Shown here piece by piece: positions 12,767 through 62,121 of a stretch of 64,000 nucleotides of DNA (positions are counted from its first letter, which is position 1; the number at the start of each line of letters is the position of its first letter). The DNA comes from Lentisphaerae bacterium GWF2_57_35. GTDB lineage: Bacteria > Verrucomicrobiota > Kiritimatiellia > CAIQIC01 > GWF2-57-35. The notes under the pieces were generated by a model that had not been told where the DNA came from, searched no databases, and saw only the letters and a list, made by a program, of their open reading frames with translations. The DNA lies in assembly GCA_001804865.1 (NCBI GenBank), contig MHBK01000006.1, positions 1 to 64,000 on the forward strand, read 5' to 3'. A program made the translations under genes and the position numbers.

Positions 12767-12780
12767 TGAGTTTGCAGCTA

Positions 12781-12803
12781 GCCCGGCTTCTCCGAAGTCG
12801 GGC
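12781..12803 (+). terminator. Hairpin downstream of glgX; copy 1 of repeat family F
   Basis: A 10-bp stem GCCCGGCTTC / GAAGTCGGGC with a TCC loop, followed by TTCTTCTTC, lies 15 bp after the glgX stop. It can act as a terminator, though the tail is a mixed T/C run. The same hairpin sequence recurs at 43291-43315 and, interrupted, at 44692-44759. Confidence 0.6.
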
Positions 12804-12831
12804 TTCTTCTTCATAACCGCATTGCGAAAAC

Positions 12832-12863
12832 CCTGTCCCACACTTTGCAAAGTGTGGGACAGG
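12832..12863. repeat. Perfect 32-bp palindrome (repeat family D, copy 1)
   Basis: The left arm CCTGTCCCACACTTTG is the exact reverse complement of the right arm CAAAGTGTGGGACAGG, with no loop. A shorter relative with core CACACTTCGCGAAGTGTG is at 36273-36290. It lies between two convergent genes (glgX and cutA). Confidence 0.85.
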
Positions 12864-12900
12864 TCAAAAAAGGCGGCGGCTCTTTCTTCAGCCTTCGAAT

Positions 12901-43285: not shown

Positions 43286-43315
43286 AAGGTGGCCCGGCTT
43301 CTCCGAAGACGGGCT
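43286..43315. repeat. 30-bp hairpin element (family F, copy 2) left of the serpin gene
   Basis: AAGGTGGCCCGGCTTCTCC (43286-43304) is followed by GAAGACGGGCT (43305-43315). It can fold as GCCCGGCTTC / GAAGACGGGC. The exact reverse complement, split by 38 bp, flanks the serpin on the other side (44692-44759). It lies in the hypE-serpin convergent gap and may serve as a terminator. Confidence 0.88.
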
Positions 43316-43324
43316 ATCCCTCGT

Positions 43325-44566
43325 CTATTCCGCGGTCTTCGTGGGATCCATCAACCGGCCGACAAAGAGGATGCTTCCGGTTTGCTTTTCCTGGATCAGA
43401 AAGAGAAAAGGATGATCGGCTCGAAAGACCGGCAATTGAATAGGCCTGGCGGTGCATTTGCTCATGACCACCGCGGTGGCCGCGGCCGCCTCCGTGCCTT
43501 CCTCGGTCACATCCACAAACGCCTTGTGAAGCACTGCCCCGATGTACAGCCCATGAGGCTGTCCATCCATGCCTGAAAAATCGGCTTGGGCTTCGCTGAA
43601 GGCATCGTTCATGCCCATGAACGCAAGCGTCTTGTCCAGTCGGAACAGGGAGGTCATCTTGAATCTGGGCAGGGATACGATCACGTCCTGCTCGGCAAGC
43701 GAGTTCTGCCAACGAGCGAAATTTTCAACCGTCAGCTCGCGTTCCAGACTCCGAATGCCCTCCGTTTCTTTGGGCAAGAGGACGATCATGGCCATTCCAT
43801 GTCCGACATAAGGCAGCTCCAGCAGGTCGAACGAAGGTTGATTGGCATAGCGGCAGGTGACTTTCTGAGCCATCATCGGCACTTGCACCGCTCTCTCGGC
43901 GGTTACATAAAAAGCAGCGTCCCTCGTGTCGGCCGCCTTGAAGGGGTTCTGCCAGGTCCCCTTGAAGTAGATCGCATTCACCAGCACCAGACGAGTCAGC
44001 GCGTCCAGAATGCCGGACGGAATGAGATCCGTTATGCGGTCCTGCGTTTTGTTGGACACCCATTCATTGATTTGGGTGCGCGCCTCTTCCGCCGCCTGCT
44101 TGTAATCCACGGCGGCAATCGAGACTCCGTAGTATTTTTTTGCGAGAGACAGGTAATCGTCCAGAAACGGGCAGCCTTTTTGCGGCCACAGGGAATTCGC
44201 GACGCTCAAGCGGATATCGCCGGATTTGCGCGCTTTCTGCAGCCGCGCGCCCAATGCTTCAAAGGCCGGATGCAGAGCGTCCGGGGTTAGGCTGAATCGA
44301 AGCGTGGCGGCCATTTCCTTTTCGGTGTTGCCGCGGGCTCCGGCGCAGGTCATGGCCAGGGCGCTTGAAATGCTGTAAGGCGAGAAGAATAAGTTCCCCT
44401 CCGTCTCCGCCAGTCGGCGATACAGGTCAAAGGCGAAAGCCGAGTTGTCTTGAACGAGGGAATCAACTTGTCCACCCGTCGCAGGAGAATGACAACAAAA
44501 GGCCAGAGGGAGAATCAAAACGCATAACAGCAACAAGGCGCATCTGCATTTCACGGTGTTCTCCAT
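43325..44566 (-). CDS. Secreted serpin (serine/cysteine protease inhibitor)
   Basis: The protein has 413 aa from the ATG at 44566. A lipoprotein-like signal (ALLLLCVLILPLAFCC) exports it. The serpin fold is clear: NLFFSPYSISSALAMTCAGARGNTEKEM, VLVNAIYFKGTWQNPF, LPRFKMTS and the late DHPFLFLIQEKQTGSILFVGRL. The reactive-loop hinge EEGTEAAAAT (about 352-361) is the inhibitory type, so it should inhibit rather than be a structural serpin. Counting from the hinge puts P2-P1 at Lys-Cys (VVMSKC-T), an unusual target residue. Bacterial serpins are sporadic and often acquired laterally. Confidence 0.93.
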   Translation of the reverse strand: MENTVKCRCALLLLCVLILPLAFCCHSPATGGQVDSLVQDNSAFAFDLYRRLAETEGNLFFSPYSISSALAMTCAGARGNTEKEMAATLRFSLTPDALHPAFEALGARLQKARKSGDIRLSVANSLWPQKGCPFLDDYLSLAKKYYGVSIAAVDYKQAAEEARTQINEWVSNKTQDRITDLIPSGILDALTRLVLVNAIYFKGTWQNPFKAADTRDAAFYVTAERAVQVPMMAQKVTCRYANQPSFDLLELPYVGHGMAMIVLLPKETEGIRSLERELTVENFARWQNSLAEQDVIVSLPRFKMTSLFRLDKTLAFMGMNDAFSEAQADFSGMDGQPHGLYIGAVLHKAFVDVTEEGTEAAAATAVVMSKCTARPIQLPVFRADHPFLFLIQEKQTGSILFVGRLMDPTKTAE

Positions 44567-44691
44567 TCTTTTGTACCGCCCTCGATTAACAGGCCGTTGA
44601 GGATCGTCCTTCATTCGGTTATCGTACTCCAGATCGAAAAGTTGTGAAAGCTAAGCATCTACGCAAAAATTTCCTGACAAATCTGCGGGGG

Positions 44692-44759
44692 AGCCCGTCT
44701 TCGCCCGCCTGCGCATCGCTACGCGAAGCGTTGCGGGCAGGGAGAAGCCGGGCCACCTT
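44692..44759. repeat. Interrupted inverted copy of the family F element, right of the serpin gene
   Basis: AGCCCGTCTTC (44692-44702) and GGAGAAGCCGGGCCACCTT (44741-44759) are together the exact reverse complement of 43286-43315. They are separated here by 38 bp (44703-44740) that form their own dyad (GCCCGC ... GCGGGC) around GCTACGCGAAGC. The element is therefore present in an interrupted form. Confidence 0.88.
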
Positions 44760-50784: not shown

Positions 50785-51669
50785 ATGACGCACTTTGTGA
50801 GAATAGAGATGCTAAGGGTTAGTATCGGCTGGTTGGCGCTGTATGCGTTATTGGCCGGAGCCCAAGCCGGCGAGCTCTCTTATCCGCTGTACATTGGGAA
50901 CGCTCAGCCGATCCAAGACGAGTTTGGGCGGAATCTGCTGGGCGCCTGCACGACGGCCATAGATCAATGTGATCGGGTGGAAGTGCTCATCAGCACTGAC
51001 GGTCAAATTTATCCACCGGCATCCGACGGGACGCCGGATCCTCGCAATATACTGCTGGAAGACGGCGTAACGGCGATCGGCAATCATACCTCTGCCGAAT
51101 TAACCAACTCCGGACTGTTTGGCTTTTCGATTAAGACGAACAAGCCGCTGCCAGGCACAAAGCTTTTTGTGCGGGCATTTAACGCAAAAGATCGCGGAAC
51201 GGCATCATTTTATGGCGATTCAGCCATCATCAACCTCGGCTTCAATGCCGTGTATATAATCTCCATTACCAACATGATCGCATTGGATTCAAACGATGGC
51301 GACGGCGAAGGCATGAATAACTCTTGGGAGAAGAGTTTGGGAACCGATCCAAATAAAGCAGATACCGATGGCGACGGGCTGAGCGACGATCAGGAACGGC
51401 GAGCGGGCACCGATCCGCTAGATGCCCAATCCTCCTTGGTTATGGCTGAAATTCGCCTTGGGTCGAATAATCGGCCTCTCATCGCTTGGGCTTCAGTTGA
51501 AGGCAAACGGTATCAGTTGGAATATACCGGCACAGATCTACGACTTAATCCCACATACGTCAACGTCAGTCTCGTCATCACGGCGGCCGGCGCAGTCTCT
51601 GAGGTGTCGGTTTCAGAGGAAGTTCTGAATCAAACGGGACAGTATCGGGTCCGATTAGTGGAAAACTAA
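50785..51669 (+). CDS. Secreted protein with thrombospondin type-3-like calcium repeats
   Basis: The protein has 294 aa. AGGAG precedes the ATG; the signal peptide ends AQAGE (about 30). The N-terminal about 135 residues form a beta-rich domain of unknown type (PLYIGNAQPIQDEFGRNL, LFVRAFNAKD). Two TSP3-like Asp-rich calcium loops follow: DSNDGDGEGMNNSWEKSLGT and DPNKADTDGDGLSDDQERRA (about 168-207), then a short beta-domain. Repeats of this kind bind Ca2+ and often mark cell-surface or cellulosome-like proteins. It is 21 bp upstream of the giant gene, likely in one operon. Confidence 0.85.
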   Translation: MTHFVRIEMLRVSIGWLALYALLAGAQAGELSYPLYIGNAQPIQDEFGRNLLGACTTAIDQCDRVEVLISTDGQIYPPASDGTPDPRNILLEDGVTAIGNHTSAELTNSGLFGFSIKTNKPLPGTKLFVRAFNAKDRGTASFYGDSAIINLGFNAVYIISITNMIALDSNDGDGEGMNNSWEKSLGTDPNKADTDGDGLSDDQERRAGTDPLDAQSSLVMAEIRLGSNNRPLIAWASVEGKRYQLEYTGTDLRLNPTYVNVSLVITAAGAVSEVSVSEEVLNQTGQYRVRLVEN

Positions 51670-51690: not shown

Positions 51691-54600
51691 ATGATAAACA
51701 AAACTGGGGTTTGCTTGGGCGGGACTCTCTTTCATCAAACCTTGAAACATGTATGCGCCAAGATTCCAAGGTTTGGAAAAAGCGTTATCGGATTTTCCAA
51801 TGCTTGGAAAAAGATAGCCGGGCTGGCTGGGGCGTTCACGGTGGCGATGGGAATATCGGCTCAGGCCGAACCTACATGGTCCGGCAACGGAGCGGACGGC
51901 AACTGGGATACGGCCGCCAACTGGATTGACAATGTGGCGCCAGGACCCGAATCGAATCTCGTCTTCTACAGCGGCATTGGCTCAGGGACCAATATCAACC
52001 TCAATGGAAATCGAGAGGTCTATGGGCTTCGATTCGAGAATAATGCCGATACGTCATTGAACTTCTACAATAATACCTTGACCATCAATAATGGAGGTCT
52101 TGGCATGAACGTCGATTGTCGAGGCAATCATGTCATCGCATCGGATGTCGTATTGGGCGCCGATCAAATCTGGAGCAATGCCGTAGCAAACAGTCCTTCA
52201 GCAACATTGACCGTCAGCGGCAACATTTCCGGCTCGGGGAGTCTAACGTTACAAGGATGCGGTTACAAATATTGGGGATTTGATTTTTCCGGAAACAACA
52301 CGTTTACGAATGCGGTGACCCTCGAAAGAGGAACGATTTTAACACTTAAACATCCTAATGCCTTGGGGTCAACTTCAGCGGGAATTAGGATCAACGATAT
52401 AAGTTCACTGCGTTTTCAGGGCACTAATACTTTTCAGCCTGAAACGATTCGATTGAACGGAACCGGAAGTTGGTATGAGGGAGCGCTGCTCAGCTTGTCT
52501 GGAAGCAATACCCTAACGGGCCCAATCGTATTGGAACGTTCTTCGATCATCAATTTAGCCAACAACGCTACACTGGTCTTGGATTCGTCGACGCCCATCA
52601 CAGGGACAGACTTGAACCTGACTGTGGCCGGATGGGGCAGCGGGGGGAATCTAATTGTTAACAGTGTTATCGATACAGGATCAGGCTATGTCAGATTGGG
52701 AGAAAATGCCCCCGATGTAGCTCTTTTGGCAGTCAATACGTATTCAGGAGGAACCATTGTATACGATGGGATATTAAGAATTAATAGCGACAGGAGCTTG
52801 GGCGCGATTCCATCCGCGTTTTCCGCCAATAACATATCCATGACTTATGGCACGCTGATTCATGGCGATGTTCCCAATATTGCTTTGCACACAAATCGCG
52901 GGATTACTCTCAATGACGGGTGCCAAAGCAAAATTGAAGTATACTCCAATCGTACGCTCACCTGTAACAGTTGCATCAGCGGCAGCGGACACTTGAGGAA
53001 ACAAGGACTTGGGACGTTGTTGCTGGCGACGAACAACACCTATAGCGGCAATACAGAGATTCTTGGCGGAACGATGATCATGAACGGTTCTAATGCAACG
53101 GCTTCAATAACCATGACATGGAACACAGGCGGACGCCTTTGCGGAATCGGTTCTATAGGGCCGCTCAATCTTTACTATCAAAACGAAGTCGATCCTGGCG
53201 CCGATCCCAATTCCGTGGGAAATCTTAAGGTTAGTTCTCTCACGGTTCATGATGGGACAACTCAGCACGTTCACATCGCGAACGCGACGGCGGGCACAGG
53301 AACAGGATGGGACGTGATTACCGTGGGCGGAGGCAGTGGAACGACGACTTATCAACAATTCTTGGGTTATCGAATTATAGTCAAACTCGATTCGATGGGC
53401 GTAACGCCAACGGGCTGGAATCCCACCAATAGCTATAATTGGGTTATCGTGGATGCCGGAGTCCTTAACGGCTTCAATACCAATCTATTTGTCCTCGATA
53501 CGTCGGCTTGGACCGGCGATTTGAAGAAAGGCGCCTTTTCCCTCTGTGAGAACGGCGGCAATCTGGTTATAAAATTTTCTCCTTATGTCTCCTCAATAAT
53601 TTTCGATAACTTTACCTCGTCTAGCGGCAGCCTGAATGGAGGAAGCGAAGGTCGAGGCTGGGCGGACAATTGGAGTTTGGGCGGCGACCCGTTTGCCGAT
53701 TATGTCAGCAGTTCGTTCAATGCCGGGTATTCGAGCTATATCGACCCGACGGCCAATAAAGTCGTGCTTTACGGAGATGTCAATGGCCGATGGGTTTCCG
53801 CCACCCGAACTTTCGACAGAACCTTCACCACCGGACGGGTCTATTTTTCCTACATGATGAATTACGCCTATAATGGCAACAACAAATACGCCGGCATCAA
53901 GTTGCTGGCGGACAATACCGAGGTTGCCTTTATCGGCAAGTGCTCCGGAGCCGACAAGGCTTTGGGCATCTCCGATACTTCGGACGACCGGATTAGTTCG
54001 TATGCGCTCCAGAATGGATCCGGCAACGACTATATTGTCGCCGGCGTCTACGATTTCTCGACCAGGCAATTAAACGCCACAGCTTATAAGATAAGCTCCG
54101 ACAGCGCTTGCGAAATGATCGCAGAAGAACCGCAGGGATACTGGCAAGTGACGACTACCCAGACCGTGGGACAAATTACAAAACTTACCGGCATTCGATT
54201 GATCGCCGGCTCTCTAAGCGGATCTGAGCAAGTGGGCTATGTGTATTATGACGAGGTCCGAGTGGGAACCAACTGGTACGAAGTAACCCGTAAAGATGGA
54301 GAATTTTATTATGACGAAGAAGCTGTAGGCCCGATTCCCGAGTTAATTTATATTGGAACCGATTACAGCGCCGGGCTATATGGCACAAGCCTTACTGAAG
54401 CAGAGGCTCTAAATTCATCGGATAAATTGGATATTGCCGTGCGATGGAGCAGTCCTTTCGGCGTTTTTCTGACGAACAACCCCAATACCTTTAACATAGG
54501 GTCCAGGGCTGGGCGGGTTTGTCCGAACTGGGATCCATTGAGAATACAAGGTTCGGTCACAAACTCATTGGGCATGGACACGAACTTTGCCTCCTTCTAC

Positions 54601-57600
54601 GGTTACAATGGAGCCTTAGTCGTCACAACCTACTACAAGAATGCGTTCTCGATTACCAATTCGAAAGGCGGCGAAACGTATTGCCTATCCGTCAGCGCCG
54701 AGAATAACAACGATGCCGGAGGGCTGATTACCGCTCCGAATGGATTCTCGGCGGCGCCCGTGCGTCGCGGCATAACCATCAACAGCAATCTGCTCTTCTC
54801 GGTGACTGACGACGACTCCGAATACCCCACGCTAATATCTTCCAATAGATTGAGATGTCCTTCCTTTGAAGAAGGCAACAGCCTTTCTACTTGGCACGCG
54901 CCAGGGTACACGAACTGGGGCAAAGATACGATCGCCGGGCTTGGCAGTGGAACTCCTAGTCATGCCCGCACCGGATCTCAATGGGTACAAATGAATGCAG
55001 CCGACTCGACCTATGAGACTGTTTGGCAACCCGTTCCGGCGGTTGAAACGAATTGGTACACCTTCAGTATTTGGGCCAAAATCGACGATATAGCCAAGCT
55101 CGATATGACCAACCTTCGCGGCTACTTTCTCTACCTTAAGATGGAGTGTTGGTCGCTCGACACTAATAACCTGTACGCCGGAAGCGGATTGCTCCTGACG
55201 AATCAAATCGATTTTACAGCGGGCATAAGTACGAATTACCGCCAGTTCACTCATTCCATGAAATCTTGCGCCGGCACCAAAAGCATCAGGGTGTGCTTTG
55301 GATTTGCAGGCAACACGTCCGCTCAACGTGTGGATACGGTGATTTATTGGGACGACGCGTCGATCGCGCAAGCCGTGCACCCCTTGGAGATCAGCTTGGG
55401 CGGCGTGAATATATCGCCGGATCAAAGCGGAACCATAAATGGAAATGTTGGCGGCCATGCGGATTGGACTAATGCGCAGTTTTCATTGTCGGATGCGCAA
55501 CTAGCCACAGTAAGCCCCGCTACGCCCTTGCGTATGATTTTCAGCATGATGGATAACGACGGAGACGGAGACAGCGGGCTGATGCGAGGAACCACGGATC
55601 CTTCGACCCAAATGAATGTGACCGTGGAAAATCTAACCACCCAGAATGTGGCCAACTTCACACTGTCGGAAAGCTCGCCGCAGGTGGAAACCAAGGCTTT
55701 CTTCGGAACGAACGTTTGGACGTTCACTTCGATCTCCGAGAGCCTGCTCGATGCGCTGATCGATCAAGGCACGAACAAGATTACGGCCACAGTTTGGGAT
55801 GCGGATACAGACCGGGAGAATGACCAATTGTGCGTCAGCAACCAACAGTTTGGCCTTCTTCACGCATATGATGACGATTCGGTTGTTCCAACGGTTAAAG
55901 CAAGTCAATCCAGCCATCTGCTTATCGACGGCGACTTCGAAGCGGGGCCGAGCTTAACGCCGTGGGTGCTGCAATGGAATATGCATTCGGCCTGGTGTAC
56001 GATCGCAGCAGGAAGCGCCGAAACGGGAGCGCGCGGATTGACGTTGTTCACAGGATTGGGAAATATTTCCTCTGCGTCTCAGTATGTAGATGTCATGCCC
56101 AATAAGAATTACGACTTCGTCTCCAGCGGAAAAATTGGAGGTAACTGGGGCTGGCCTCCCAGTTCTGTGGGCATGCGTTGCAGATTTTTCGATGCCGCCA
56201 ACTCGCAAGTGGGCGAGTCTTTCTTGAACCTGCCCTCCATGCTTACCGGCTCTTGGCAAGTCTTCACCAACCCGTGCACCGCTCCCGCTACGGCAGTAAA
56301 AGCGCAGGTCGCTTTTGACTGTTCGGGCTGGCCAGGCAATGCGTATGTGTATTTCGATAATGCGTCGTTTACCTGCACCAATGCGGGTTATTGGCCTCCC
56401 AAAGTATTGATCGGCTCTACAGAGTATTATGGCCCAACCAATGGTCCGGATGAATCGATCGAGATTTATGATGGAGATCTGGCGGGGGTTAGCGCCGGCA
56501 ATCCTCTAAAAGTGTTGGTTTACGCCTATGACAATTATAGCGGACTGCAACGATCGACGACCGGCAATGCGTCCACCCAGCTGAACTTAAGCGTGGGGAC
56601 TCTCACAACCAATAACATCGCCAATTACAACGCCGCGCAGAGCTCCTCCGTCACGACCTCTAGCACCGCACAGAGTATTTGGAGTTGGAATTCGATCAGT
56701 TCGAATCAACTGTCGGCGCTCTTTGAGGCGGGCAGCAATCGGATTGCCGTAAGCGTGTGGGATTGCGACTCGGATCGCTCCGACGACCAGGCGGGACTGA
56801 CTAACGTGGCCTATGCGTGGTTGAAGGTGATCGACGACGACACGAATCCTCCGTCGATAGCGCTGATCGATTCGGCGATGACCTATGTAACCAACGCACA
56901 ATTTGCTCACGTAACGCTAAACAACACCAACAAGTATGCGAGCGGCAACTCGACGAACCGCGTATTTCTGCTGACGGACAACGAACTTTCGACGCTGTCG
57001 GCGGCAAACGTGCTAAGGCTGAGCGTCGGGGCTTTCGATGCGAATGGGCTGTCTCGAACGAATTTGGCGGGCGCGTCGACCAACCAGTATATGAGCATAA
57101 GCATCGGCGGCGCATTGACGAACAATACTGTCAATTACTCCGCACAAGAGAGCTCGGAATTTACGTCCACGATTTCAGGAGCGCAGGGTTCGACGAACGT
57201 TTGGAGTTTCGGTGCGCCGTTTACGGCAATACAGCTCGACGCATGGATGACAGAGGGGACGAACGCAATCGTCGCGACGATACCGGACGCAGACGCCGAT
57301 CGCGCGAACGACGCGGCGGTGCTGTATTCGCAGCAAGTGGGATATCTGGTCGTAAACGACAACGATTCAGAAGCGCCGACCGTAAGCAATCTGGTGGTGC
57401 TGGTGGGCGACAGCGTAGCTCCGCTGATCGCCGGAGCGAACACGACCAACGTGATCTACCGCCTCACAGACGGAGATCTGGCCTCGGCAGGGAGCCTCCC
57501 GGTAAAAATCAGCTTCAATGTTTACGACCATGCCAGCGGGATTCCTCGCAACAACATCGGCCCAGAGAGCAACATGAACGTCACGGTAGAGGCGCTGACG

Positions 57601-60600
57601 ACCAACAACGTGGCCAACTATGTGCCGACGATGAGCGCATTGAACGCCAAGACGTCAGGCGCAACGAGCCTGTGGGCATGGACTGAATCCCTTTGGCAGG
57701 AGTCTGTGAGCAATCTCTATGGACCGGACTGGATCGTCAGTGGCGAGACCAAGGCTAATGCGACAGGCTCTTGGCGCAAGGTGTACGCCAACGTGCCGGA
57801 TGCCGACAACGACCGGCTGGGCGATCGGCAGTGGCGGAGCAATCAGCAGTTTGGAATTTTATGGATAGCCGACGACGACACGGATGGACCGGTTTTCGGC
57901 GCGGGCTCCACAGAGAATTTACTGCGCAATGGGGACTTCGAACGGGCAAGCTTCAAGGACCTGCACGGCGCTTACGGATGGGAATATGACGATCCAGATG
58001 TGCATGGAGGACGCTGGGGAACGGCTACAAGGCAAAACAACTACAGCGGAGGCGGTTATCCCAATTCCTCGGACACCAACATTGCAACGATCGGCGGAGC
58101 ATGGGCCGGAGGCACGGGAGGCGGCTGGTGGCAGGACGCGCCGGCAATGGCCGGACAACGTTACGAAGGCGGCGCCTGGTTCTGGAGCGATACGACGCCG
58201 GCCTTTACGGCGCGATACTGCGAGGTGAAGGTGGAGTTCTATAGCACGAATACGTTATTGGTATCGGCGACCAATCGCTTCAACGCGCCGGGAGAGGTCT
58301 GGACATGGCATTCGGCGACCGGATTGGCGCCGGCGGGTTCGGCGCGGGTGCGGCTGGTATTGGCCGCCGAGGACGTCAGCGCCGGCGGCTCCATGCGACT
58401 GGACGATGCCAAATTGTGGGCGGCGGAGCTGACAAACCTGGTCATGGACGTCACGATCGGACAGAAATCGGATGTGATCGACGCGCGGAACAGCTGTTAC
58501 GGATGGGACTCTGGGACCAATGCGGTCTTTTATTTGACCGATGGAGATCTTGCGGAAGTAAGCGCGACTCGTCCGTTACAGTTTATGTTTAGGGTCTACG
58601 ATCCGTCCAGCGGCGTGATGCGCAGCGTCTCGGACGAGAATCTCAATTACGATTTGGGGACCGTCGATACGCTGGAGGACTGCCACGCCAATTATGTCGA
58701 GAGCCGAAGCTCTTCCGACACGAAAAACGCTTTGTCAACCAGCGTCTTTGCTAATGTTCAGAATTACACGGTGGGCGGCGAACACAACGGCTCTGTATTC
58801 GTGGAGACCGGAGAAGTCTGGCAGCTTATGGCGGCGGGAATTAATACCGTGACGGTATCGGGACCCAACGACGATGTAGACCGAGGCTCTGTAGATCGAG
58901 AGTGGACGATCAACCGGCAGGCAGGGCTGTTGATGGTGGCCGATGACGACGACGAGTGGCCGTCTTGCATCCTGCTCTATGCAGGCGATGCGTATACGCC
59001 AGGCATTGCGATGCCCGTAACGATCACCGACGGGCAGATGACCAATGGATTCGACTTTGCCTATCGCTTGTACGACCGTTCTGGACTATGGATGACCAAT
59101 CGGAATGGGGTAGCCAACCTCAACGGCAATTTCGGCAATGTCAGCCCTAACTGGGATCTGAAGAACCCGTGGGGCATTTATCTGAAGGAAAATGTCGTTC
59201 ATGCCCCGACTAATCTGCTTGCGCCGACCGGCAACGGCAGCCTGACCGTCACCGCATCTGAATATAATGTATCCATTTCCTATGCCAACAACGCTACCGG
59301 AACCTGGGTGCTGCAAGCCAGTGCGCAGGATAACGACCAGGATCGAGGCTTTGTGGCGCTAGCCAATGGCACAACCGTATCCCTCGATCGAGCGGTGGCC
59401 TCGGATATGGCCATGAATTTTACGGTCATCGACGACGATCTCAGTGCGCCGGCAGCGCACAGCCTAAACGTGAAGAATGGACGGACCATGCTCGACAGCG
59501 ATATTCGGTTCGGGCAATGGAATCTAAGCGTGGTGTTGGAGGACAACAGCGAAGTGGCCCTCGCGACCAACGGCGGCTATAGCCTGCCCCACTACAGCCT
59601 GCTCAACGCTCATGGGACCGTACAGACTAATGTCGGGTGGCTCTCCGCGACGAAGCAACTGAACACTAACGCCTGGACAATGGCTCGGGCGGCCCGGGGA
59701 ATTTCCTACAGCAACGTAACCACGGGAGTGCATGCCTTCGTCTGGTCAGCGATGGATAAGGATGCAGACCGATCCAACGATTGGATGCAAGCGATCGACA
59801 GCCCGACCATTTTCAACGGAACCAACGTCTTTACGGTCATCGACGACGACACAAATTATCCCACCGCGCCCTCCGCCGTCCACCTGCAGCCGTCCGCATG
59901 GACCAACCGCAACCTGTTCACGTTAGCCTTCGTCGCCTCCGAGGACGACTCGGGAATTTACCAGTACCGTCTCTCAACCAATGCCGCGGCGCCAACGTCG
60001 ATCACAAATGGACAGAAGCTGTCGGCGATCTATGTGACTAATATACTAAGCGTTTCTATTAGCAACGGCAGCTTCGAAATCGGCTCGGACGAGCTGACGA
60101 TCCCAGCCATGCCGCAGTCCACCAACAATTGGATGAGCGGCTCTACGGGAGGCGCCGGATTGCACTTTGCCGATGAAGCCGGCGGTCAGGCCGGAAGTTT
60201 GGCTGTTCGCCATGAGATCCTCGACGGGGTCTTAATGGACACCTCCGATCGCTACACGCTGTGCAGCCAAGAAGTTTATCTGAACAATACCAACCGACTG
60301 AGTCCGACCGTGAACTATATCGGATACTTCCACGGCGACTTGTCGAGAGTGGGCTTCGGCGGCAACCAGGCCGCAGCCTTTCTGAAAGCCGAGGGCTTCA
60401 ACATTGGCTCGAATCGCTGCTGGATCGCCGGCGGAGAATACAACGTCGAAGCGCTCGTCGGGGTCAACCCCTCGAGCTGGACGCAAGCGTTGCTGGCGGT
60501 CAGCAATGCCCCAGCCGACACGGAGTTCATTCGCTTCAGTTGCGGGATCAGCGGGCACGGCTCTCGGTTGGCCGCCACCGGCTATTGGGACAGCCTCTCG

Positions 60601-62121
60601 ATCAGCGTCTCGGTACAACAGATCGGTTCGGTGCTTTTCACCAATGCACCGCTGGGCATTACCACCAACTGGTTCTTTGCCGTCGATGACGACAATGACC
60701 GTCCCGAGGACCGGCTGAAAAGCCCTAATACGAACTTTGTCATCATGTACGACAACATTGCGCCTACGCAGATTATGAACCTGATAGCGACTCCGGGTTC
60801 TATCGACGACGCATCTGAAATGGACCTGACGTGGAGCAAGCCGCGCGATGGAGGAGGAAATGGATCTGATCCCCTGTCTCCCTGGCGGACATATAAAATT
60901 TACTACACGGAAGACGGAAGCGAGCCCTCCACAACCAACGGCTCCGCCGTTACCCTCGATAGCGTTCCGGCGCTGAGCGATCGGTTGACGGAATCGATCA
61001 CGCTAAGCAATTTCACCTTTGGCGTAGAATACAATGTCGCCATAGCGGGCGTCGATTCTGCCGGCAATGAGGGACCGCTGTCAGAACCGAAGAGCGTGCT
61101 CCTATCCGGATTTTTTATTACACAAGGCGTGGTCAATGCGGAAACGGATCTTGGCAAGGCCGATATTGCCTGGACAGCAGCCGAGGGCCGCGAATATGAC
61201 CTGATTTATGTCGATGCCTTGGACTTCACATCCGCTTTAAGCAATCGCTGGAAACTGGTGGAACGAGGCGCCGCCAGCATGCTCAGCGACACCGGAAATG
61301 TTGCCATGGGACGGGTTGCTCCCAAGAATTTGGGCAGTAACATGCGCTTTTACCGGGCGGCTCAAAAAGACCGCTGGACAACGAATTGGCAGCGTCGCGT
61401 GGCCAGCGAGGAAGTCTATGTGCTCAAATCCATTCGCTTGCATCCGGGCAAGAATTGGGTTGCCTTTCCGGGCATTCCTGACACCTGCACGGCCGCTCGG
61501 GTCTTTGGGCACAGCCTGCCCAGCGGCGGAAGCGATGTGCTGTCCACGCGCGTTTCCTGGTTTAGCCGGGGAACCACCGCCATTGCGACCCAATGCATCT
61601 GGCTGTCGTCGGCTCCCTTGCAGTGGCGCATGGACAATCAAAATGCCGACGATATTAGCGTGCCGATTCATCAGGGGGTGCTGATCGAGATCCCTGACAA
61701 CGAGACCGCGCGAACGACATTGTTTATCGGACGGGTTCCAACCAACTCACAAACCCAGTTGATCAAGGGGGGGACGATGGCTAATCCGGCTTATAATCTT
61801 GCGTCCTTTGCGATGCCGCGGAATGTCCGTCCCAGCCAGATGAACTTGATCGAATCGGGCTTCCAAGGCGGCGATCGCCCAAGCAAATCGGATAAATTAC
61901 TGAAGTACGACCGCGTCCATCAACAAATCAGCGGCGCGGGGGTTTGGTACAAAACCAACGATGCAACTTGGCGCGAAGCCACCAGTGCGAATGGAGCGAT
62001 TATTGGAAATAGCTGCCTCACGCCCGACGACGGATTTGTAATCCTCACGGTACATCCAGACGACTGGGTGTGGACCAATAAAGTCCTATATACCTTGCCA
62101 ACGCGTTACATGAACCCGTAA
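51691..62121 (+). CDS. Giant modular secreted protein (3,476 aa) with PATR, CBM-like, repeated Ig-like DDD modules and Fn3
   Basis: GAGG precedes the ATG at 51691. The 55-residue signal region has a long n-region derived from the TTCCAA repeat (KIPRFGKSVIGFSNAWKK), then a hydrophobic core and AQAEP. Residues about 60-540 are passenger-associated transport repeats (YSGGTIVYDGILRINS; NTYSGNTEILGGTMIM). About 636-868 is a concanavalin-like domain. From about 870 to 3000, about 140-180-residue modules end in a conserved V-DDD--(x)P strap. Four of them carry NGDFE-type jelly-roll domains (SFEEGNSLS, GDFEAGPSL, GDFERASF, GSFEIGSD). An Fn3-like domain (about 3029-3137) and a tail end the protein. 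No beta-barrel autotransporter domain or C-terminal sorting signal was seen. Likely surface adhesin or polysaccharide binder. Confidence 0.88.
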   Translation: MINKTGVCLGGTLFHQTLKHVCAKIPRFGKSVIGFSNAWKKIAGLAGAFTVAMGISAQAEPTWSGNGADGNWDTAANWIDNVAPGPESNLVFYSGIGSGTNINLNGNREVYGLRFENNADTSLNFYNNTLTINNGGLGMNVDCRGNHVIASDVVLGADQIWSNAVANSPSATLTVSGNISGSGSLTLQGCGYKYWGFDFSGNNTFTNAVTLERGTILTLKHPNALGSTSAGIRINDISSLRFQGTNTFQPETIRLNGTGSWYEGALLSLSGSNTLTGPIVLERSSIINLANNATLVLDSSTPITGTDLNLTVAGWGSGGNLIVNSVIDTGSGYVRLGENAPDVALLAVNTYSGGTIVYDGILRINSDRSLGAIPSAFSANNISMTYGTLIHGDVPNIALHTNRGITLNDGCQSKIEVYSNRTLTCNSCISGSGHLRKQGLGTLLLATNNTYSGNTEILGGTMIMNGSNATASITMTWNTGGRLCGIGSIGPLNLYYQNEVDPGADPNSVGNLKVSSLTVHDGTTQHVHIANATAGTGTGWDVITVGGGSGTTTYQQFLGYRIIVKLDSMGVTPTGWNPTNSYNWVIVDAGVLNGFNTNLFVLDTSAWTGDLKKGAFSLCENGGNLVIKFSPYVSSIIFDNFTSSSGSLNGGSEGRGWADNWSLGGDPFADYVSSSFNAGYSSYIDPTANKVVLYGDVNGRWVSATRTFDRTFTTGRVYFSYMMNYAYNGNNKYAGIKLLADNTEVAFIGKCSGADKALGISDTSDDRISSYALQNGSGNDYIVAGVYDFSTRQLNATAYKISSDSACEMIAEEPQGYWQVTTTQTVGQITKLTGIRLIAGSLSGSEQVGYVYYDEVRVGTNWYEVTRKDGEFYYDEEAVGPIPELIYIGTDYSAGLYGTSLTEAEALNSSDKLDIAVRWSSPFGVFLTNNPNTFNIGSRAGRVCPNWDPLRIQGSVTNSLGMDTNFASFYGYNGALVVTTYYKNAFSITNSKGGETYCLSVSAENNNDAGGLITAPNGFSAAPVRRGITINSNLLFSVTDDDSEYPTLISSNRLRCPSFEEGNSLSTWHAPGYTNWGKDTIAGLGSGTPSHARTGSQWVQMNAADSTYETVWQPVPAVETNWYTFSIWAKIDDIAKLDMTNLRGYFLYLKMECWSLDTNNLYAGSGLLLTNQIDFTAGISTNYRQFTHSMKSCAGTKSIRVCFGFAGNTSAQRVDTVIYWDDASIAQAVHPLEISLGGVNISPDQSGTINGNVGGHADWTNAQFSLSDAQLATVSPATPLRMIFSMMDNDGDGDSGLMRGTTDPSTQMNVTVENLTTQNVANFTLSESSPQVETKAFFGTNVWTFTSISESLLDALIDQGTNKITATVWDADTDRENDQLCVSNQQFGLLHAYDDDSVVPTVKASQSSHLLIDGDFEAGPSLTPWVLQWNMHSAWCTIAAGSAETGARGLTLFTGLGNISSASQYVDVMPNKNYDFVSSGKIGGNWGWPPSSVGMRCRFFDAANSQVGESFLNLPSMLTGSWQVFTNPCTAPATAVKAQVAFDCSGWPGNAYVYFDNASFTCTNAGYWPPKVLIGSTEYYGPTNGPDESIEIYDGDLAGVSAGNPLKVLVYAYDNYSGLQRSTTGNASTQLNLSVGTLTTNNIANYNAAQSSSVTTSSTAQSIWSWNSISSNQLSALFEAGSNRIAVSVWDCDSDRSDDQAGLTNVAYAWLKVIDDDTNPPSIALIDSAMTYVTNAQFAHVTLNNTNKYASGNSTNRVFLLTDNELSTLSAANVLRLSVGAFDANGLSRTNLAGASTNQYMSISIGGALTNNTVNYSAQESSEFTSTISGAQGSTNVWSFGAPFTAIQLDAWMTEGTNAIVATIPDADADRANDAAVLYSQQVGYLVVNDNDSEAPTVSNLVVLVGDSVAPLIAGANTTNVIYRLTDGDLASAGSLPVKISFNVYDHASGIPRNNIGPESNMNVTVEALTTNNVANYVPTMSALNAKTSGATSLWAWTESLWQESVSNLYGPDWIVSGETKANATGSWRKVYANVPDADNDRLGDRQWRSNQQFGILWIADDDTDGPVFGAGSTENLLRNGDFERASFKDLHGAYGWEYDDPDVHGGRWGTATRQNNYSGGGYPNSSDTNIATIGGAWAGGTGGGWWQDAPAMAGQRYEGGAWFWSDTTPAFTARYCEVKVEFYSTNTLLVSATNRFNAPGEVWTWHSATGLAPAGSARVRLVLAAEDVSAGGSMRLDDAKLWAAELTNLVMDVTIGQKSDVIDARNSCYGWDSGTNAVFYLTDGDLAEVSATRPLQFMFRVYDPSSGVMRSVSDENLNYDLGTVDTLEDCHANYVESRSSSDTKNALSTSVFANVQNYTVGGEHNGSVFVETGEVWQLMAAGINTVTVSGPNDDVDRGSVDREWTINRQAGLLMVADDDDEWPSCILLYAGDAYTPGIAMPVTITDGQMTNGFDFAYRLYDRSGLWMTNRNGVANLNGNFGNVSPNWDLKNPWGIYLKENVVHAPTNLLAPTGNGSLTVTASEYNVSISYANNATGTWVLQASAQDNDQDRGFVALANGTTVSLDRAVASDMAMNFTVIDDDLSAPAAHSLNVKNGRTMLDSDIRFGQWNLSVVLEDNSEVALATNGGYSLPHYSLLNAHGTVQTNVGWLSATKQLNTNAWTMARAARGISYSNVTTGVHAFVWSAMDKDADRSNDWMQAIDSPTIFNGTNVFTVIDDDTNYPTAPSAVHLQPSAWTNRNLFTLAFVASEDDSGIYQYRLSTNAAAPTSITNGQKLSAIYVTNILSVSISNGSFEIGSDELTIPAMPQSTNNWMSGSTGGAGLHFADEAGGQAGSLAVRHEILDGVLMDTSDRYTLCSQEVYLNNTNRLSPTVNYIGYFHGDLSRVGFGGNQAAAFLKAEGFNIGSNRCWIAGGEYNVEALVGVNPSSWTQALLAVSNAPADTEFIRFSCGISGHGSRLAATGYWDSLSISVSVQQIGSVLFTNAPLGITTNWFFAVDDDNDRPEDRLKSPNTNFVIMYDNIAPTQIMNLIATPGSIDDASEMDLTWSKPRDGGGNGSDPLSPWRTYKIYYTEDGSEPSTTNGSAVTLDSVPALSDRLTESITLSNFTFGVEYNVAIAGVDSAGNEGPLSEPKSVLLSGFFITQGVVNAETDLGKADIAWTAAEGREYDLIYVDALDFTSALSNRWKLVERGAASMLSDTGNVAMGRVAPKNLGSNMRFYRAAQKDRWTTNWQRRVASEEVYVLKSIRLHPGKNWVAFPGIPDTCTAARVFGHSLPSGGSDVLSTRVSWFSRGTTAIATQCIWLSSAPLQWRMDNQNADDISVPIHQGVLIEIPDNETARTTLFIGRVPTNSQTQLIKGGTMANPAYNLASFAMPRNVRPSQMNLIESGFQGGDRPSKSDKLLKYDRVHQQISGAGVWYKTNDATWREATSANGAIIGNSCLTPDDGFVILTVHPDDWVWTNKVLYTLPTRYMNP
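51764..51811. repeat. TTTTCCAA-N-TTGGAAAA repeat (family A) within the giant gene's signal region
   Basis: TTCCAAGGTTTGGAA (51764-51778) and TTTTCCAATGCTTGGAAAA (51793-51811) are members of the repeat at 19797-19896. They lie in frame within the coding sequence and encode part of the n-region of the signal peptide. Confidence 0.92.

Follow-up and report, generated by a model that had tools for sequence, protein, structure and literature searches.

Two solitary REPs beside a serpin gene and a palindrome found in REP loops in Lentisphaerae bacterium GWF2_57_35

Results and discussion

Elements flanking the serpin gene

The window analysed here comprises the first 64,000 nucleotides of contig MHBK01000006.1 from Lentisphaerae bacterium GWF2_57_35 (assembly GCA_001804865.1) and contains a serpin gene with a copy of the same short element on each side (Table 1). 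The left element lies between convergent genes; its foot GGTGG occupies 43288–43292 and its hairpin starts at 43293. The right element lies upstream of the serpin start, in a region between divergent genes, and consists of two pieces, AGCCCGTCTTC (44692–44702) and GGAGAAGCCGGGCCACCTT (44741–44759), which are separated by a 38-bp palindrome, termed B, whose boundary is ambiguous by 1 bp because a G is shared. A preliminary description of this DNA had proposed that the two arms are exact reverse complements once these 38 bp are removed, which is borne out to the base against a shuffle expectation of zero, and that they enclose the serpin gene and no other, which is also the case. Two uninterrupted matches to the element were found in the window (0 expected from window shuffles), and the 38-bp insert folds as a hairpin with z = -4.1 on the + strand.

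Table 1 Positions of the repeats and genes discussed (window coordinates, except for the RAYT-like gene on contig C4)
Feature	Position	Strand	Remark
A-hairpin relative without foot, after glgX, terminator-like	12780..12804	+	T-rich tail
Left REP, stem type A, uninterrupted	43286..43315	+	AAGGTGGCCCGGCTTCTCCGAAGACGGGCT
Serpin gene, 429 aa, PF00079	43325..44614	-	bystander between two REPs
Right REP, stem type A, loop holding B	44692..44759	-	opposite orientation to left REP
Insert B, 38-bp palindrome CTGCCCGCAACGCTTCGCGTAGCGATGCGCAGGCGGGC	44703..44740	-	at loop position TTCTCC^G
RAYT/TnpA_REP-like gene	C4:17341-17802	-	Y1_Tnp, 4ER8, motifs, REP arrays on both sides

The same description had pointed to a third relative after glgX. 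This copy is real, matching the A hairpin at 22 of 23 positions (12782–12804), but it lacks the GGTGG foot and runs into T-rich sequence. A separate palindrome, CCCACACTTTGCAAAGTGTGGG, lies 3' of the glgX hairpin at 12836–12864; it resembles CACACTTTGCAAAGTGTG at another locus of the genome (L018), while TTTTCCAATCATTGGAAAA palindromes recur at further loci, and these are further palindromic repeat families of this genome. Rfam gave zero matches to the window at gathering thresholds. Elsewhere in the window a single ORF of 3476 aa (51691–62121, + strand) adjoins a gene for a TSP3-repeat protein (50785–51669).

A REP family with two stem types

Pattern searches of the 5.05 Mb genome, together with retrieved stretches, provided the counts given below, and 145 of the 161 half-hairpins, or equivalents, were inspected individually. 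The uninterrupted 23-mer hairpin is present in 60 copies genome-wide with up to three mismatches, compared to none for a reversed control, and the relaxed pattern GGTGG-NCCGNN-TTCTCC recovered 161 half-hairpins of both stem types, compared to three for its control. Stem type A reads GGTGG CCCGGC TTC TCC GAA GACGGG and stem type C reads GGTGG G/ACCGCG TTC TCC G..AACGCGG, the foot GGTGG and the apex TTCTCC^G being common to both. When 155 copies were placed relative to predicted genes, 63 lay in convergent, 54 in tandem and 12 in divergent regions, 10 were intragenic and 16, which fell at locus ends, could not be assigned. Set against these 10 of 155 intragenic copies, 86% of random positions lie inside genes. 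This lean towards gene 3' ends is compatible with the usual roles of REPs in mRNA stability.

The elements in the window are REPs, that is, GTGG-footed imperfect hairpins: the family has a GT[AG]G-type foot, folds as a hairpin, is present at high copy number and is mostly extragenic, as in the GTAG/GTGG class. Feet reading GTGG in place of GTAG have been documented for Opitutus terrae (PMC3733652), and the GT[AG]G form (PMC6006769) covers both. Twenty-one of the 25 REP pairs closer than 200 bp are oriented head to head (+-), which matches the layout that Bertels and Rainey described for REPINs (PMC3116915), with two REPs facing each other within about 200 bp. The pair flanking the serpin gene is not a REPIN, because its members are 1.45 kb apart.

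Some REPINs are carried by a MITE family with an 18-bp terminal inverted repeat (TIR), CAGCAATTGTAATTATGA, seen at loci L024, L010, L002, L023 and L090, and flanked by 9-bp target duplications at two of them (CCGTGAATA at L010, GGCCGCTTC at L024). This TIR has 75 matches genome-wide, many of them solo ends; both serpin-flanking copies lie outside any MITE of this type. The A–C REPINs at four further loci (L007, L012, L025, L026) are preceded by a CTGTCTCTTATACACAGATTT-like sequence within a conserved block, close to the Tn5 mosaic end; the block is probably another MITE, the alternative being a resemblance to sequencing adapters.

A RAYT-like gene between REP arrays

Members of the Y1_Tnp family are encoded at seven places in the genome. 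One of these genes, on contig C4, has an array of A, A+B and C elements on either side, the REPtron arrangement of a Y1/HUH gene flanked by REPs. Its product of 154 residues has a modest Pfam match to Y1_Tnp (1.1e-6, 29 bits), matches the TnpArep structure in PDB entry 4ER8 (E = 6e-5) and carries the motifs DHVH (HVH), WQ and YIxxNPV. From the anatomy of this locus and from known systems we infer that this RAYT would move both the A and the C REPs. A second RAYT-like gene (L252, G000:C25:50620-51290) has hairpins of another sequence, GGAGCCGGCCTGCCCTCAGGCCGG, on its flanks, and these constitute a separate REP family.

Insert B in this genome

The preliminary description had suggested that the right hairpin was itself hit by another palindrome. 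This is correct, and the same arrangement is seen dozens of times in the genome: B-type inserts of 37–38 bp interrupt stem A at one identical point in 35 places, and the B shell, CTGCCCGCAA...GGCGGGC, occurs 67 times. Of the 65 B copies inspected, all but one interrupt the loop of an A or C hairpin at TTCTCC^G, with minor losses in a few cases; the exception sits in the loop of another hairpin, CGCGA-CTCC^AC-TCGCG. B starts with CCTGCCCGC and has no GT[AG]G foot; the C stem has its own B variants, with the apex CATGGCGTAGCCATG. About eight B copies contain a further B, inserted in reverse within the first.

The MITE copies provide examples of empty and occupied sites. A 122-bp TIR MITE (L024) holds an A–C REPIN without B between its target duplications, the C arm is occupied by B in seven sister copies of 160–162 bp, and a 235-bp copy (L090) has B in the A arm and a B containing another B in the C arm. 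The B copies of this genome probably descend from just 4–6 insertions. Two chimeric hairpins were also observed (L019 and L058), one of which is half A and half C joined through B, the other being inverted at the centre of B; they suggest recombination or template switching through B.

Insert B in other genomes

An exact search for the B shell pattern in the other genomes of the order that were sampled found it absent, except for one match without the B apex. B does however recur several times in members of the class belonging to at least four other families (f12, f20, f25 and f30), where some copies are solitary and others are nested in a B or located in hairpins of other kinds. One copy, in genome G302, occupies the CTCC^G point of a REP with a GGAGGG foot whose partner arm is empty. 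A clear junction hairpin, defined as a stem that ranks above about 96% of the positions within its locus, was found at 9 of the 37 B sites outside this genome (approximately 6–7 of them independent), so that loop targeting is a preference at most, and a strict specificity of B for hairpin loops outside this genome holds only in part.

None of the 30 Y1 transposase loci inspected in eight B-bearing genomes of the class had a B copy nearby. We therefore rejected the proposal that B is moved by an adjacent Y1 transposase in those genomes and, with the GT[AG]G foot also missing, the proposal that B is a REP with a RAYT of its own. A scan of the whole collection for B with TTC/GAA flanks returned two matches, in unrelated organisms. 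Exact B was also present in two IMG/VR contigs (L364, L365), which may be phages or misassigned bacterial contigs.

Alternative explanations

The perfect 30-bp inverted arms around one gene might be read, as in the preliminary description, as the ends of a small transposon mobilising the serpin gene. We consider this extremely unlikely and reject the cassette on REP copy number, mixed pair orientations, base composition and the distribution of serpin homologues. The 161 half-hairpins are spread across the genome around many genes without cassette-like pairing, and the six REP pairs listed for the range of 0.2–2.5 kb, with actual spacings of 0.3–1.5 kb, are oriented -+, --, --, ++, ++ and +- (the last being the serpin pair), so inverted enclosure is not enriched. 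The serpin gene has the same G+C content as the window (56.2% for both), and homologues occur in 11 of the 28 genomes of the order that were searched, this one included; the nearest, from two other families of the order, share 55–64% identity, and relatives in the order have theirs without REPs of this kind. Comparison with relatives revealed no conservation of neighbours within 1.5 kb of the serpin gene, which speaks neither for nor against a cassette. The REP–serpin–REP unit occurs once in the genome, and a second serpin gene (C47:52965-54101) has an A+B element on one side only, about 1.1 kb away. The REP bracket around the serpin gene is most probably a coincidence. The other reading in the preliminary description, that the hairpins are reused intrinsic terminators and not a mobile repeat, is very improbable. 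It would account for the enrichment of convergent sites (63 of 129 intergenic copies compared to 301 of 897 random intergenic positions) and for the glgX copy, which scores as a terminator and looks like an ordinary one. Intrinsic terminators lie 3' of genes and combine a G+C-rich stem with a T-run behind it, yet at least five T in the eight downstream positions were found for just 13 of 51 A copies, 3 of 19 C copies and 7 of 55 copies with an insert, which is too rare for a general explanation, and we rejected it as such. The glgX copy alone was called as a terminator, neither serpin-flanking copy being called and the right one lying between divergent genes, as do the other copies in divergent regions; moreover, termination explains neither the REPIN pairing and the RAYT array nor the fact that unlinked copies are identical in sequence, GGTGG foot included.

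A further alternative concerns the direction of change between A and A+B, which coexist in this genome. Palindromes are prone to deletion, and A+B could be an ancestral long hairpin from which A arose through precise loss of the top by replication slippage. This is unlikely, although somewhat less so than a terminator origin: slippage should favour flanking direct repeats, and only a single G is shared here; other families of the class contain B independently, and it also sits in an unrelated REP and within itself; and the empty MITE copy at L024 keeps a perfect C-type hairpin together with its 9-bp target duplication. We consider it highly probable instead that REPs were spread by a RAYT, that two solitary copies in opposed orientation flank an ordinary serpin gene by chance, and that B entered REP loops repeatedly, the analysis having covered one genome of this family.

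Under this preferred explanation the mobility of the REPs would come from a RAYT gene at another site of the genome, whose product (TnpA_REP) is a single-strand HUH/Y1 transposase; the processing of REPs has been demonstrated in vitro for E. coli (PMC8266576). Two solitary REPs would have landed by chance, in opposite orientation, on either side of the serpin gene. B would have entered REP loops at CTCC^G several times. Its fixed position, its nesting and the lack of a clear target duplication suggest that it enters exposed hairpin loops, beside a C, as single-stranded DNA, moved by a putative enzyme. The REP+B unit was then multiplied, either in the manner of a REP or as part of its MITE, as the numerous identical copies with differing flanking sequences show. 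More tentatively, and with distinctly less confidence, we propose that B may be an independent, class-wide mobile palindrome that prefers the single-stranded loops of other hairpin repeats (CTCC^G), itself included, so that hairpins would grow by recursive insertion at the apex while the REP/RAYT system spreads the composite.

Comparison with known systems

The closest known systems are TnpA_REP of E. coli and the REPINs of Pseudomonas fluorescens (PMC3116915, PMC2817692, PMC8266576), which share with the present family a GT[AG]G-type foot on an imperfect hairpin of approximately 25 nt, more than 100 extragenic copies, head-to-head doublets and a Y1/HUH gene flanked by the repeats. The present family differs in that a single RAYT locus has both stem types, A and C, around it and REPINs pair one type with the other, in that the loop of many copies holds a 34–38-bp palindrome, and in that some REPINs ride in a TIR MITE with 9-bp target duplications.

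Precedents exist for one short palindrome lying inside another at a defined point. REPs within other palindromes have been described for GTAG-23 of T. roseum, GTAG-15 of A. variabilis and CGTC-1 of H. neapolitanus, with empty target palindromes reported for T. roseum (PMC3733652). In those cases the REP is the insert, whereas here it is the host, and B is additionally found on its own in other families and forms nests of up to three levels (B in B in REP). Several IS elements target REPs (ISPsy8, ISPa11, ISPpu9, ISPpu10, ISRm22 and ISRm19; PMC1525189) and, like B, use one fixed point of the REP, which for ISPsy8 and ISRm22 is the symmetry axis; B differs in being a non-coding sequence of 34–38 bp with a target duplication of at most one ambiguous base. 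Longer self-complementary loops in some copies are also known from GTAG-3 of E. coli and from GTAG-14 of Bradyrhizobium, where inner regions reach 27 bp (PMC3733652), but these were described, with no explanation of their origin, as loop types of one family, whereas here the loop is filled by an independent repeat that has a distribution of its own and takes up nested insertions itself. In the literature on nested and loop-inserted palindromes we found no case of a separate palindromic repeat that lodges time and again in loops of unrelated REP families and also nests in itself.

Conclusion

The pair flanking the serpin gene consists of ordinary REPs, and what is new is the recurrent insertion of an independent palindrome into REP loops. 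For annotation, inverted REP pairs around a gene should not be read as a cassette. If the proposed behaviour of B is true, B would amount to a parasite of a parasite that homes to loops and is moved by a single-strand enzyme, and its landing at the tips of different REP families would be indirect evidence that these hairpins are extruded in vivo as single-stranded loops. The empty, filled and doubly filled copies would form a natural series for studying REP hairpins, and insertion of elements such as B may be a mechanism behind the long self-complementary REP loops of other bacteria.
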